IMG/VR virus record: IMGVR_UViG_3300025873_000040
Span: 1-25,660 of that record
DNA from: a virus
Strand: one strand, 5' to 3'
DNA: 25,660 bases
How positions within the stretch are numbered: position 1 is the first letter of the stretch; each line of letters begins with the position of its first letter. Positions 2,570 to 25,120 of this stretch are shown one piece after another. The position numbers and the translations under genes were made by a program. Below the pieces are notes generated by a model. The model searched no databases, was not told the DNA's origin, and saw only the letters and a program-made list of their open reading frames with translations.

Positions 2570-2811
2570 AGTACTTAACTAAAGCAGGAGTCAAATTTAT
2601 AAAAGAGTCTCGCACGGGTAGACAATATCCCAGAAGAGGAAGAAGATATAGAAGAAGTAAAGCAGCATCAACAGAATCAACAGAATCAGAGGAAACTCTA
2701 CCCCCAGGAGTTGTTCGTGCTGAACCAGGATCAGGTGGGATAGGATCTAATCTCCCCCCTGGTGTACTTAATCCTAAACCTAAGCCTAGAGTAAAACTAC
2801 AAAAGAGATGA
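2566..2811 (+). CDS. Small basic protein with MKYLTKAG tag and protease-site motif
   Basis: An 81-aa protein beginning MKYLTKAGVKFIKE then S. The tag ends in I-K-E before Ser, a perfect fit to the T4 prohead protease rule ([LI]-x-E before a small residue). The mature part would be an extremely basic segment (PRRGRRYRRSK) followed by a low-complexity Ser/Thr/Glu and Pro/Gly tail containing LPPGV twice. AAGGAGAGG upstream is a good ribosome site. The first 45 coding bases are nearly identical to those of the next gene, indicating a recent duplication of the tag. Predicted internal head protein (inference). Confidence 0.65.
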   Translation: MKYLTKAGVKFIKESRTGRQYPRRGRRYRRSKAASTESTESEETLPPGVVRAEPGSGGIGSNLPPGVLNPKPKPRVKLQKR

Positions 2812-3602
2812 ACTACCTCACTAAAGCAGGAGTCAAATTAATAAATGAGGGTAGGAGAAGAAGTAGGTCTCAGAAATCTCAAAAAGTTAAGGATAAGTTA
2901 CTTATGCCAGGAGAAACTCCGTTAACTCCTCAAGGGCATGATGATAGAGGTAGAACCCCTAATGTAGAACTTAGAGCAGGTTTAGAGGATATGAAACCTA
3001 GAATAAAGAGAGCTAAGGATAAAAATAAAGATCTTGCGTATGGTAGAGAAGGTGATGTAGCAGGTACAAGAGGGGAAAGACTTGCGAGGGCATACGCACA
3101 AAGACTAGCAAGAGGTGGTAAGAAAGCTAGTAGAAAAATAGTAAGAACAGGGAAGACTAAAGAACCGATTAAAGGTTGGCAAGGAAAGGTTACAGGCTTT
3201 AGTTTAGAACATCCAGATACTGACCCTAAGAATAAAGGTAACAGATTAAGTAGAATATTAACTAAATCTTTAGGGGGAGCAGATCAAGGAGCAGCAGCAA
3301 CACATTCATTCCTTAGAGGGGCAGGAACAAAGACAAAAGCAGACCCAAGTGCAAGAAGAGGATTAAAAAAATTAGGGGTATCACCAGACGAGAACAATCC
3401 ACAAACTTTCTTTAGACATAGTTTTGCTAGAACTGATCCATCACAAACTAGACCAGGACAATTAACTAAAGGACAAGAGATAATAAATAGAGTGAGGAGG
3501 ATGGGTGTAAGGAGAACTGTAAAGAAGAAAAAGAAAGAAGGTTATGAGGTTATAGGAACTATGGGATCAGGTCATATGGGATCAGGTCAATGGACCGATT
3601 AG
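2808..3602 (+). CDS. Large basic protein with MNYLTKAG tag, candidate internal head protein
   Basis: A 264-aa, Lys/Arg/Gly-rich protein starting MNYLTKAGVKLINE then G, which again fits a [LI]-x-E prohead protease site. The body is almost all basic and disordered-looking: RRRSRSQKSQKVK near the start, RTVKKKKKEG near the end, then a Gly/Ser/Met repeat with GSGHMGSGQ. It is the longest and last member of the coupled operon 1494-3602, with its start overlapping the previous stop. The composition suits DNA binding inside the capsid. An enzymatic role is not excluded, but I see no catalytic motif. Confidence 0.65.
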   Translation: MNYLTKAGVKLINEGRRRSRSQKSQKVKDKLLMPGETPLTPQGHDDRGRTPNVELRAGLEDMKPRIKRAKDKNKDLAYGREGDVAGTRGERLARAYAQRLARGGKKASRKIVRTGKTKEPIKGWQGKVTGFSLEHPDTDPKNKGNRLSRILTKSLGGADQGAAATHSFLRGAGTKTKADPSARRGLKKLGVSPDENNPQTFFRHSFARTDPSQTRPGQLTKGQEIINRVRRMGVRRTVKKKKKEGYEVIGTMGSGHMGSGQWTD

Positions 3603-4400: not shown

Positions 4401-5057
4401 CTAATGCGTTGCAAACCTTACGGTTTTAGGGACGCTCCAACATAGACCACAACTAGCACAATCTTTCAATTTGCCTGTTTGTTCTGGACAATCAAAACTC
4501 TTGCCCTCAAATGATTCTTCCGCAGCGAATAGATTAGAAGACTGTACTCCCTCTGAGAAAGATTTATTTCGAGAGAATCTAATTGTGCATCGCTCATTAT
4601 AGCGAGTATTTAGCATCCAAATAGACCAGCCAATCTCACTACCTTCTTCCCTTCCCGTGTATCCGAACAATGAAAGAGTGGGGAAATCAAATAGCATCTT
4701 CTCCCAAAAATTAACATATTCCGTCGTCATGAAATCACCTAGAACATGGAGACGAATAACAATTCCTTGCGCGTGTTTCTTTGTTAGTGTTTCAATCTCA
4801 CTTTCAATCTTGGGAAGCAATCCGATTGTACTAAATCGGTGCGCGAATGGCATATTGTTACCATAACAATCTTCCCAATGATGGCATGATGTTGGGCAAG
4901 TTTCACGCTCAACTAGTGTGAGAGAATATAACTTTTTTCCTTTCCACTTTGGAGTGGTTATCTTGAAACCTAATTTCTTATTATTGGATCCTGGTTTGAG
5001 TACGGTATATAGTGTGGGGTCCTTGATGGACTTCTGAAAGCGTGTAGAGTATTGCAT
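4401..5057 (-). CDS. GP88-like phage protein with Cys clusters
   Basis: A 218-aa protein with cysteines at about 54, 58 and 64 (ETCPTSCHHWEDCYGNN) and a second cluster at 190, 200, 203 and 206 (CASCGLCW). The TCPxxC...CYG segment recalls the GP88 family (PF17338) found in actinophages and other phages; I assign this from memory with moderate confidence. The cysteines suggest a bound metal or Fe-S cluster. The middle, IVIRLHVLGDFMTTEYVNFW, looks like a beta-alpha unit. Its promoter has a -10 box ending 6 nt before the ATG, so the message should be leaderless. The biochemical function of the family is unknown to me. Confidence 0.65.
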   Translation of the reverse strand: MQYSTRFQKSIKDPTLYTVLKPGSNNKKLGFKITTPKWKGKKLYSLTLVERETCPTSCHHWEDCYGNNMPFAHRFSTIGLLPKIESEIETLTKKHAQGIVIRLHVLGDFMTTEYVNFWEKMLFDFPTLSLFGYTGREEGSEIGWSIWMLNTRYNERCTIRFSRNKSFSEGVQSSNLFAAEESFEGKSFDCPEQTGKLKDCASCGLCWSVPKTVRFATH

Positions 5058-6120: not shown

Positions 6121-6425
6121 ATTGTAGAAAAGAACAAAGGGGACAACTCCCCCGTCCAAAAACCAGACTCCGCGCCTAGGTCACATCAACACCCGATTTT
6201 TATCATGTATGAGCTTGGTGAGTGTCCACCTTCACAAGAGAGTTATTCCGTCCAGTTAGGATTACTAAGCCTTTCCTTCTGGCATCTTGAATGCTTCCCC
6301 TCCACGGTGAGGATGATTGAAAAAAAACCGTGGAGGACGCTCAGAGCCTGTTAGCCTATTTATACTCGCTCTGTCGAGTGTGGGGAGAGGGGGGATATCA
6401 ACCTAAAACCCTCCCCCCCAAACCG
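6121..6425 (-). other. Structured non-coding stretch downstream of the 70-aa gene
   Basis: No convincing gene is seen on either strand. On the minus strand it contains a G-run/C-run hairpin (about 6384-6420), a T4-late-like TATAAATAGG (about 6355-6364), a perfect 9-bp hairpin CCTCCACGG/CCGTGGAGG (arms near 6300-6335, with eight T in the loop) and a terminator-like GGGGGAGTTGTCCCC followed by TTTGTTCTTTT (about 6127-6153). It may be a long 3' UTR or a small-RNA locus. Confidence 0.4.
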
Positions 6426-8995: not shown

Positions 8996-9077
8996 TGGTG
9001 GAGGTGGAGGGAATCGAACCCTCGTCCTAACTAGTTCCCATATGGGTCTTAGCTAGTCGAACAACCTTTACACCCCC
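8996..9077 (-). ncRNA. tmRNA-like tRNA-like domain, 82 nt, without a tag-coding part
   Basis: Read on the minus strand, the RNA begins GGGGGUGUAAAGG, followed by UUGUUCGAC, closely like the 5' end of tmRNA (GGGGCUG...GGUUUCGAC). It ends GGACGAGGGUUCGAUUCCC and then UCCACCUCCACCA, like the tmRNA 3' end. All 7 acceptor pairs form (GGGGGUG with CACCUCC, one G-U), the T stem is GAGGG/CCCUC with loop UUCGAUU, and CCA is encoded. Between the two ends there is only a helix (ACUAG/CUAGU) capped by CCCAUAUGGG, in the place of tmRNA helix P2. No D stem or tRNA anticodon arm can be folded. A normal tmRNA is over 300 nt with a tag frame, absent here. An aberrant tRNA or a remnant are alternatives. Confidence 0.6.
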
Positions 9078-9084
9078 GAAGGTG

Positions 9085-9130
9085 GGGGAGAGGCTACGCT
9101 AAACTTAAGGTTTGCGCTTCGCCTCTCCCC
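9085..9130 (-). other. Strong stem-loop preceding the tmRNA-like RNA
   Basis: A perfect 10-bp stem, GGGGAGAGGC (9130-9121) with GCCTCTCCCC (9094-9085), encloses a nested stem in which CGC and AAAC pair with GTTT and GCG. It is not followed by a T run. It could be a processing or stop signal for the upstream gene, or a detached structural part of the tmRNA-like molecule. Confidence 0.5.
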
Positions 9131-9508: not shown

Positions 9509-9615
9509 GGTGCTATACTAGCGTGTGAGATCCAGCTTACAAGTGAAAAGAAAAGAAATGCAGCTATGGCATAGCACACTACACCCCTAGCCACTACCTT
9601 ATTGAAATCAGCCAT
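9505..9615 (-). CDS. Membrane micro-protein, 36 aa
   Basis: A 36-codon frame starting MADFNKVVARG, then one hydrophobic helix (VVCYAIAAFLFFSLVSWI). The start overlaps the end of the upstream gene and the TGA stop overlaps the ATG of the downstream gene, an arrangement expected for coupled translation and unlikely by chance. The downstream gene's promoter lies inside this frame. Positive residues precede the helix, favouring a cytoplasmic N-terminus. Function unknown. Confidence 0.6.
   Translation of the reverse strand: MADFNKVVARGVVCYAIAAFLFFSLVSWISHASIAP
9515..9542 (-). promoter_or_regulatory. Leaderless promoter TTGTAA-16-TAGTAT
   Basis: Minus strand: -35-like TTGTAA (9542-9537), 16 bp, -10 TAGTAT (9520-9515), AGCACC, ATG 9508. 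The -35 is weaker than in its neighbours, but the 6-nt gap to the ATG is kept. Confidence 0.6.
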
Positions 9616-9886
9616 TGCTAGTAGGCCCACCATGCATCCACTCGTAAGCCTCAGCAGCCCCGTAACGCTTCCCGTCCTCATCTAGTGGTAGCTCACGCCT
9701 CAGACCACGGAATGCCTCTAGGAGTACGCTCATGTCCTCTGAGGCATCCTCGTTGTATGCTTCATTGAATAGCTCTGCCACCTCAAGTGATAGGTTGTGA
9801 ATGTGCGAGGGTGCTTGATCGTCCCACCCATTGTATGAGTCGAGATGGTCAAGCATATACTGTGTCTGTTCTAGGGTGTATGTCAT
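9608..9886 (-). CDS. Hypothetical acidic protein, 92 aa
   Basis: A 92-aa, helical, strongly acidic protein (MTYTLEQTQYMLDHLDSYNGW...). Helices with EVAELFNEAYNEDASEDM and LEAFRGLRRELPLDEDG dominate. It is the first gene of the minus-strand early block. It has its own promoter with the -10 box 6 nt before the ATG and cassette copy 6 further up. The stop overlaps the following micro-gene. No family recognised; the acidity might suit a host-protein inhibitor. Confidence 0.6.
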   Translation of the reverse strand: MTYTLEQTQYMLDHLDSYNGWDDQAPSHIHNLSLEVAELFNEAYNEDASEDMSVLLEAFRGLRRELPLDEDGKRYGAAEAYEWMHGGPTSNG

Positions 9887-10131: not shown

Positions 10132-10335
10132 ATGAAGTATCTTACAGAAGCTGGGAGAGAGTTCTTAAACGAGGTTGAAGAAAGGGTTAGACGACCTTTA
10201 ACACGCCCTGGAACTACTAGACCTTCAAGAAGATCTTTTGCTAGACAAGTTAAGGCTGCACAAAGAGTTCAGAGATCTAAAGAAAGACAAGGTGAGAGAG
10301 TACCAGAGACCCCCAGAGTTATTTCCCTTCCTTAA
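10132..10335 (+). CDS. Small basic protein with MKYLTEAG tag, isolated copy
   Basis: A 67-aa, Arg-rich protein starting MKYLTEAGREFLNE followed by V, the same tag as in the 1494-3602 operon, ending in L-N-E at the presumed prohead protease site. The rest is basic and Pro/Ser-rich (RRPLTRPGTTRPSRRSF), ending in VISLP. It is single, with its own late-type box and its own terminator, 6.5 kb from the other members and beyond the minus-strand block. An internal head protein role is inferred. Confidence 0.65.
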   Translation: MKYLTEAGREFLNEVEERVRRPLTRPGTTRPSRRSFARQVKAAQRVQRSKERQGERVPETPRVISLP

Positions 10336-10392: not shown

Positions 10393-11346
10393 TTAAGTGT
10401 AATCGTGATGGGCCGAATTGTAATACGGATTTACAGCAAGCCTGTCTGCGTCTTGGGGCCAGATAAAGCCATCGGACACCACTGGGTAAGACACAACGAA
10501 TCTGTATTGGTATACATTAGTGTTGTTTAAATTATCACAATTTGTATTAATAAATTGTAGTAACCTATTTGCTCCAGCAGCATTATCACCAAATCCTGGC
10601 TCTGAGGAAGTGTTGTATCCACCACCCATCAAATCGAAATAATCACCACCAAGGGCATACGGAGATATTAACGGGTATAGTTCATTGGTTACATCCCCAG
10701 TTGTGGTATTGTACCAGGGGCTCCTTGGCAGATAATCCTTATAGGGAGTACCTAAATTACCACCGTCACCCCACACAAACCCTGTTGCTGGCCCTCCACC
10801 AGGAGTCGGGTAAGAAGATAATATAGTTGCATGTCCAGTCCCAACTTGCATGAAAGTATAGGGTACATCTGTTGCTTTCTTTGGGTCTCTTCTTATAAAA
10901 GGTTGAGTAGTAATAATGGATCCTTGGGGACCAAATACATATTTATTATTAGTTCCACTTACTTCTCCATAAGTATAACCAGCTTTACCAACCTTTTGGG
11001 CTTGTATAGCAATCTTTTGTGGTTGTGTATAGGAACTTAGTGTAAAGTTATTATGTAAAATTCTACATGAATTATAAGCAGTTATTTTAACATGTAAATT
11101 AGTACCATCTATACTGCCACTAGCGGTAGCACTTGCATGAGTTAAACTCCTAAATTCAGTAGATACTTTATTCCACAAGTATTTAGGATTTCGAGTATAC
11201 TCGATAGTCATCCACTGCGTATATTCTGCATAATCAATTGGATCAAGTCCACTTGTAGCTGTATGCCCACCAGCCGAAACCCAAGTGGTGCCACTTAAGC
11301 CTTGGGTGTTAGGTGCGGGTGTTGGGGGAGTTCCTGCTGCTGTCAT
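10393..11346 (-). CDS. Virion-type structural protein (paralogue of 24215 and 25144 products)
   Basis: A 317-aa Gly/Thr/Asn/Tyr-rich protein. Residues about 40-115 contain the pattern WMTIEYTRNPKYL ... SSYTQPQKI, which matches the products of 24215-25120 (WLDIVYTRVPNYV ... SSWTQPQTF) and 25144-end (LTLTYYRAPRMYG ... STWQQPQTF). All share a later motif FGPQG / LGPNG / LGPQG. The composition suits a surface or fibre protein. AAAAGGA precedes the ATG. It is on the opposite strand from its relatives, so the family has been duplicated and inverted. Exact virion role unknown. Confidence 0.65.
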   Translation of the reverse strand: MTAAGTPPTPAPNTQGLSGTTWVSAGGHTATSGLDPIDYAEYTQWMTIEYTRNPKYLWNKVSTEFRSLTHASATASGSIDGTNLHVKITAYNSCRILHNNFTLSSYTQPQKIAIQAQKVGKAGYTYGEVSGTNNKYVFGPQGSIITTQPFIRRDPKKATDVPYTFMQVGTGHATILSSYPTPGGGPATGFVWGDGGNLGTPYKDYLPRSPWYNTTTGDVTNELYPLISPYALGGDYFDLMGGGYNTSSEPGFGDNAAGANRLLQFINTNCDNLNNTNVYQYRFVVSYPVVSDGFIWPQDADRLAVNPYYNSAHHDYT

Positions 11347-24214: not shown

Positions 24215-25120
24215 ATGACCAATTCAGATGTTATTATTGGGCTCCCCATACAAACAGACCCTTATTATTTTAATGATCAGTCTCAGGGGATGGTTGGTGC
24301 TTCCGGGATAGTAAACACTGGCGGGGATCTTTCTGGGCCTTGGAAGATTGAAGAACAATGGCTAGACATTGTGTATACTAGAGTTCCTAATTATGTAGTT
24401 TCTTCTGTAAAATATGGCTTATCTTCAGTTTCTAGAGGTGTGGGAATTACAGGTAATTTTTTGTTAGTTAGGGTTTCTGCTCAATTTATAAGATATAAAT
24501 CTTATGACAATTTTTCAACTTCTTCCTGGACTCAACCACAAACATTTAAATATCATACATTCCAAGGTGATGATTATGGAAATAATTATGGTCTTTCTTC
24601 TGATTATGGTTCTTCTGCCTTAGGCCCTAATGGCATTATACAGACAATGAATAGTTGGTATGATAGACGAAGATGGAACGATAAAATAGATACTTCTGCT
24701 CGGGAATATTGCGTAGGGACTAGACATTATTATCCTATAGGAGGATCTGCTATAGATCCGAATGGTATAATATATGGCAAGAGTGGAGACAAGTTTTGGG
24801 GAGAATTTGAGAGGCACGGTCCACTTCCTTGGGAATCTCATACTTTCCTAGATAGTGACATCTATGATACTGGTGATTACTTTTTTAGAGGAACCCAAGA
24901 ATATTATATTGCTGGTACTTATGATCCTAAAAAAGAGTCTGCCTTCCAAATTCAAAATTTTATAAATAAAATGGGCAATAAGGTAACTGAAATGAGCCTC
25001 TATTCAGTAGGTACTGATTGGATAAATAATTCTGCGGGGGGTAGCAACTTATATCCCCCTGAGTCTAATAGAATACAAGGGTGTCCTAGTTATTCTATAA
25101 CTAGACATAATTGGTCATAA
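24215..25120 (+). CDS. Virion-type structural protein (paralogue family)
   Basis: A 301-aa Tyr/Ser/Gly/Asn-rich protein. About residues 37-110 carry LSGPWKIEEQWLDIVYTRVP, GLSSVSRG and SSWTQPQTF. Later motifs are SDYGSSALGPNG, SWYDRRRW and SAREYCVGTRHYYP. The next gene shares the same order (LSGPWMIE, GLASVSRG, STWQQPQTF, SALGPQG, EWYNRRPW, TAREG), so the two are close tandem paralogues. The 10393-11346 product is a more distant one. Such tandem families often make receptor-binding or fibre proteins; the exact role is unknown. Confidence 0.7.
   Translation: MTNSDVIIGLPIQTDPYYFNDQSQGMVGASGIVNTGGDLSGPWKIEEQWLDIVYTRVPNYVVSSVKYGLSSVSRGVGITGNFLLVRVSAQFIRYKSYDNFSTSSWTQPQTFKYHTFQGDDYGNNYGLSSDYGSSALGPNGIIQTMNSWYDRRRWNDKIDTSAREYCVGTRHYYPIGGSAIDPNGIIYGKSGDKFWGEFERHGPLPWESHTFLDSDIYDTGDYFFRGTQEYYIAGTYDPKKESAFQIQNFINKMGNKVTEMSLYSVGTDWINNSAGGSNLYPPESNRIQGCPSYSITRHNWS

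Follow-up and report, generated by a model that had tools for sequence, protein, structure and literature searches.

The window, that is, the whole 25,660-nt stretch of viral DNA analysed in this work (IMG/VR virus record IMGVR_UViG_3300025873_000040), carries on its minus strand, at 9077-8996, the gene for an 82-nt RNA, encoded CCA included, which is a phage-encoded tRNA-like domain (TLD) of tmRNA standing alone. This tag-less mini-tmRNA is no one-off: it belongs to a family spread across several unrelated phage groups, of which at least 127 unique members, mostly 78-80 nt long, were found in IMG/VR. From sequence, we infer that these molecules would carry alanine, bind host SmpB and compete with or divert host trans-translation, a reading to which we assign a probability of about 55%. 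The window record contains a terminase of the T4 type, with about 33% identity to gp17 homologues, and a T4-type (gp20-type) portal.

Read along the minus strand, the RNA has the order GGGGGUG UAAAGGUUGUUCGAC UAGCUAAGACCCAUAUGGGAACUAGUUAG GAC GAGGGUUCGAUUCCCUC CACCUCC A CCA, and its mature 5' G lies at 9077. The gene, its elements and the leader preceding it are as follows:

8996-9077, minus strand: tag-less mini-tmRNA gene (RF00023, 66.4 bits; family model R1, built without the window, 60.1 bits, E 7e-15)
9071-9077, minus strand: 5' strand of the acceptor stem, GGGGGUG, with G3 at 9075 (fold, RF00023 alignment)
9056-9070, minus strand: reduced D-like segment UAAAGGUUGUUCGAC, with UUCGAC at its end and without a D stem (RF00023 alignment)
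9027-9056, minus strand: capped P2-like hairpin CUAGCUA-AGA-CCC-AUAU-GGG-AAC-UAGUUAG (fold; P2 covariation across the family)
9007-9023, minus strand: T arm GAGGG-UUCGAUU-CCCUC (fold; compensatory change among relatives)
8996-9006, minus strand: 3' strand of the acceptor stem, CACCUCC (U at 9002 is the partner of G3), discriminator A at 8999 and CCA at 8998-8996 (sequence, fold)
9078-9130, minus strand: 5' leader, a GC-rich hairpin (9130-9085), after which CACCUUC abuts the mature 5' end (fold)

When the whole window was scanned against all 4227 Rfam families (E<=1), the tmRNA model RF00023 matched at this place with 66.4 bits (cut-off 47, E 4.4e-24). The match covers both ends of the model (1-374) and skips 290 internal positions, so that the tag reading frame and the pseudoknot ring of standard tmRNA are absent; the mRNA-like domain and pseudoknots are replaced by the capped P2-like hairpin, which folds into 7 bp, an AGA/AAC internal loop, 3 bp and a 4-nt loop. 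The original prediction of a tag-less, TLD-only tmRNA encoded by a phage, with a complete acceptor stem, T arm and encoded CCA, is borne out by this match and by the fold, in which the acceptor stem forms all seven of its pairs (GGGGGUG/CACCUCC) and the T arm pairs GAGGG with CCCUC. As had been supposed, no tag frame fits, since only 28 nt separate UUCGAC from GGACG. The G3-U70 alanine identity pair, which was to be looked for, is formed by 9075 with 9002, and it is accompanied by the discriminator A. The fold itself gains modestly over shuffled sequences (z -1.8); the significance of the RNA rests on the profile scores and on covariation in homologues.

Other identities for the locus were considered. 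A tRNA is rejected: ARAGORN made no call at all in the window, and the fold offers no cloverleaf with an anticodon arm and 7-nt anticodon loop, the hairpin having 7+3 bp interrupted by an internal loop and closed by a loop of 4 nt. A full tmRNA close by is rejected as well, RF00023 having a single match in the window's record. It had also been proposed that the structured segment upstream is the other part of a split tmRNA. This idea fails, because both acceptor strands are already present in the RNA and no other tmRNA piece was found; the hairpin upstream of it is a leader element in its own right. The permuted tmRNA model RF04321 had no match in the window in the all-Rfam scan, in which older permuted models of the clan that overlap a better match go unlisted; it did match permuted tmRNAs in Stenotrophomonas phage DLP_6 and Acinetobacter phage BUCT628, and the same library also detects full tmRNAs in other phages. 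A chance fold is rejected because the covariance model built without the window still recovers the RNA. Bacterial origin was addressed by partial tests only: in a pre-filtered search at E 1e-7, model R1 found nothing in 396 Actinomycetota and 398 Pseudomonadota genomes, and an exact-pattern scan of the same 396 Actinomycetota gave two matches, which on visual inspection are a tRNA and the 3' end of a tmRNA, and no mini-tmRNA.

The family was collected by pattern scans of IMG/VR that left the acceptor stem unconstrained, followed by a structural filter. The counts include related sequences, which are not independent observations, and the number of members is to be read as a minimum. Alignment A2, made from 28 members with the window left out and used to build R1, supports all four helices: 96.5% of cells are paired, compared with 71.4% after shuffling, two-sided changes number 155 against 46, and the covariation score is 0.642 against 0.133, a signal that is destroyed by sliding the partners. 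Covariation is strong in the acceptor, P2 and T stems. In the window, R1 had the RNA as its sole match. The first five positions of the outer P2 stem are paired in 83-96% of the listed members (41-46% when shuffled), and in 108 of 119 the short inner stem is preceded by an internal loop rich in purines that leads into CC (UAAGACC, GAAAGCC, UAAAGCC and similar). The D signature UCGAC and the GGAC before the T stem are also kept in the family; both were part of the search patterns and are not independent evidence.

Four representatives were each searched singly by BLAST, and the phage matches at L201, L344, L349, L353 and L354 proved to be full or permuted tmRNAs. ARAGORN tmRNA calls overlap the minis of L165, L193, L218, L268 and L341; these full-tmRNA calls are apparent over-extensions, and Rfam prefers a mini of 81-85 nt in L165, L218 and the BRock record of L341. 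A shorter tag-less type of 65-66 nt, whose acceptor/T stack is one pair shorter, was seen at L029, L035, L040, L056, L064, L069 and L072, and phage tRNA genes are present at six of these seven loci.

The alanine identity elements are strictly conserved across the family. Pair 3-70 is G-U in 126 of the 127 unique members listed, the sole exception (L285) being apparently misregistered, and the discriminator is A (A73) in all 127; neither G3-U70 nor A73 was constrained by the search, and an earlier count made without any U70 filter gave 93/94. Pair 1-72 is G-C in 127/127 listed members, as is pair 2-71 in 126/127, with many pair types at acceptor positions 4 to 7. Among tRNAs from the same DNA, G3-U70 occurs in 17 of the 419 scored, including 9 of the 10 scored as tRNA-Ala.

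The mini-tmRNA was located in ten cultured phages, nine of Streptomyces and one of Pontimonas:

Streptomyces phage BRock, 97143-97220: mini-tmRNA
Streptomyces phage LuckySocke, 17977-18054: mini-tmRNA
Streptomyces phage GiJojo, 17025-17102: mini-tmRNA, under a called CDS
Streptomyces phage pSt2308, 33356-33433: mini-tmRNA
Streptomyces phage Alone3, 18155-18231: mini-tmRNA
Streptomyces phage Tomas, 88030-88107: mini-tmRNA
Streptomyces phage Naboo, 16911-16988: mini-tmRNA
Streptomyces phage NootNoot, 84341-84417: mini-tmRNA
Streptomyces phage Riptide, 83298-83374: mini-tmRNA
Pontimonas phage phiPsal1, 5569-5647: mini-tmRNA, just before the major capsid gene

None of the cultured-phage annotations examined names it. 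Six records hold a full-length tmRNA and a mini-tmRNA in one genome, namely those of Tomas, Naboo, NootNoot and Riptide and the virus records G001 and G025. No SmpB was found in 33 phage records, many of them fragments (controls positive), so host SmpB would be used; the mini-tmRNA would likewise need host AlaRS and EF-Tu. Two other unannotated tRNA-like elements were noted in cultured phages. In Mycobacterium phage Konstantine (about 683-727 of L200; FJ174691 near 40846-40890), a short element has a T arm and a paired acceptor-like stem with almost nothing in between. In Roseobacter phage DSS3P8 (655-725 of L202), an odd element with G3-U70 and CCA matches the mini-tmRNA model weakly (25.8 bits) and may be a degenerate tRNA-Ala.

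The window shares neighbouring genes with three virus contigs (L166, L167 and L340), among them one for a GP88-like protein with 58-69% identity. In both L167 and L340, the mini-tmRNA has a homologue of window gene 9608-9886 on one side and one of 4401-5057 on the other. The T stems and acceptors of the four RNAs differ by compensatory changes. The leaders of the three relatives also contain a GC-rich hairpin, with unrelated arms, and then ACCYUUC directly before the mature 5' end. A CCC in the leader could base-pair with the initial G residues of the RNA, enclosing a UUCG loop and competing with the acceptor stem. Elsewhere in the window, a Pistol self-cleaving ribozyme was matched at 6292-6379 on the minus strand (54.2 bits, cut-off 34.5); L340 has one at 10954-11006 (38.5 bits). 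By eye, small plus-strand ORFs at 1494-1706, 1920-2342, 2566-2811, 2808-3602 and 10132-10335 have similar N termini (MKYLTxAGxxFxxE), and two proteins of about 300 aa encoded on opposite strands, at 10393-11346 (minus) and 24215-25120 (plus), are apparent paralogues.

tmRNA is charged with alanine only, and its binding by SmpB needs D-T loop interactions (PMC3968760); work cited in that article crystallised an alanyl-TLD-SmpB-EF-Tu complex on a stalled ribosome. With standard tmRNA (RF00023) the window RNA shares the 5' and 3' ends, the acceptor stem with G3-U70, the D-like segment, the T arm and CCA; in contrast, it has neither tag frame nor pseudoknots and measures 82 nt, compared with 230 to 400 nt. 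Its closest described counterpart is the TLD-only tmRNA of mycobacteriophage DS6A (tmID 11587; Mao et al. 2009, as cited in PMC4131195 and PMC11915505), which, going by its description, is also phage-encoded, consists of scarcely more than a tmRNA TLD and has no tag frame. DS6A is a single case, whereas the present family spans several phage groups that are unrelated to one another and counts at least 127 unique sequences. Of the 97,179 tmRNAs in the 2025 tmRNA database, 9 are non-permuted and lack a coding sequence; the database lists 79 phage tmRNAs, and DS6A is the only phage case of the TLD-only form that is named (PMC11915505). Mitochondrial tmRNAs without the mRNA-like domain (RF02544; Jacob et al. 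2004) are similarly tag-less and retain a conserved TLD, but they are organellar and usually permuted, while the window gene is viral and in standard order. Plastid tmRNAs of about 65 bp without a CDS (PMC11915505) likewise combine a TLD with the absence of a tag but are organellar, and two-piece tmRNAs such as that of methylophage Melnitz (PMC9004378) are phage-encoded too but are permuted and include an mRNA-like piece. No published description of the mini-tmRNA family was found in the open-licence literature searched. The TLD-only kind of phage tmRNA is thus already known from DS6A; new are the family's size and spread, its conservation and covariation, and its co-occurrence with full tmRNA.

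In the proposed mechanism, the mini-tmRNA would undergo tRNA-like processing, receive alanine from host AlaRS and be bound by host SmpB and EF-Tu; it would then take the place of host tmRNA in entering ribosomes that have stalled at the end of a broken mRNA. Having no resume codon, it would be unable to add a degradation tag, and host trans-translation would in this way be competed with and diverted during infection. High expression, plausible for a phage tmRNA, has an example in mycobacteriophage Wildcat, whose tmRNA is the most highly expressed lytic gene (PMC7474061). The decoy role raised in the original prediction, or an inhibitor role, has a published precedent: according to the accounts in PMC4131195 and PMC11915505, an RNA similar to the DS6A TLD, chargeable or not, was a strong inhibitor of tmRNA in E. 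coli, and titration of SmpB may be the cause. That inhibition needed no charging, so simple inhibition leaves the conservation of G3-U70 unexplained, and a pure inhibitor would also block the full tmRNA present in six phage records; both points weigh against the proposed mechanism. Since the alanine identity elements are under such strict conservation, and titration alone would not need G3-U70, the mini-tmRNA probably works on the ribosome while charged and is more than a sink for SmpB; a full phage tmRNA in the same genome also speaks against a plain SmpB sponge. The class is widespread and largely unannotated; it has a conserved P2 module with a cap, occurs in tailed phages that are unrelated, and in some genomes accompanies a complete phage tmRNA. 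We propose tentatively, at a little under even odds, that these tag-less tmRNAs would be alanine-charged effectors on stalled ribosomes, either rescuing them without a tag or trapping them, rather than simple sponges for SmpB.

Rescue without tagging is rather unlikely. Here the charged mini-tmRNA with host SmpB would accept the nascent chain, and the peptidyl-RNA would be dropped and hydrolysed by host Pth, freeing ribosomes without tagging, which would be useful to the phage while mRNAs are cleaved. Strict G3-U70 and A73 point to a charged form, a full tmRNA alongside fits a helper better than an inhibitor, and mitochondrial tag-less tmRNAs occur together with targeted SmpB and are considered to be still helpful (PMC11915505). 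Against this stand the inhibition of tmRNA by a similar TLD RNA in E. coli, as recounted in PMC4131195, and a search of 34 phage records (many of them fragments; controls positive) that found neither Pth nor an RF-1-type domain. A further difficulty is release itself. To our knowledge, there is no route by which a ribosome is freed once the chain has passed to an RNA that lacks a resume codon.

A distinctly less probable target lies outside SmpB: as an anticodon-less mimic of tRNA-Ala, the RNA would occupy AlaRS or EF-Tu or bait a host RNA-cleaving defence, which would suit the conserved alanine identity and the members within phage tRNA arrays. Of 128 loci, 25 have another tRNA gene within 500 nt; against this reading, 96 have none in the stretch of DNA retrieved around them. 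The D-like segment and GGAC, moreover, are of the tmRNA type, not that of tRNA-Ala, in agreement with the fit to RF00023. That the RNA is a functionless, decaying remnant of a deleted phage tmRNA, as the original prediction had also entertained, is very improbable. The mRNA-like domain is indeed missing and full tmRNAs in some phages are a possible source, yet compensatory changes are found in every stem while the functional nucleotides stay fixed in the 127 unique members listed, G3-U70 being near-invariant; the lengths peak narrowly at 78-80 nt, the RNA is retained in the window's relatives, whose proteins are about 60-70% identical, and it coexists with full-length tmRNA in several phages. 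Hardly any weight falls on a piece of host ssrA carried as an attachment site for site-specific integration. Such a fragment usually consists of the 3' end only, and the window RNA family has both acceptor strands, co-evolving; no integrase was matched among the neighbouring window proteins scanned, even though ssrA is a known integration target and its fragments occur in prophages (PMC9004378).

Returning to the reading of an alanine-charged RNA that would compete with host tmRNA, the near-absolute conservation of G3-U70 makes the choice between a charged effector and an SmpB sponge directly testable, and the cultured carriers among Streptomyces and Pontimonas phages mean that laboratory phages are at hand for testing. 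The class is missed by annotation, as ARAGORN was silent in the window and so were the cultured-phage annotations examined. Its occurrence in over a hundred phage sequences suggests that phages may interfere with or redirect host ribosome rescue. If mini-tmRNAs do divert ribosome rescue, the control of trans-translation would be a common phage strategy.
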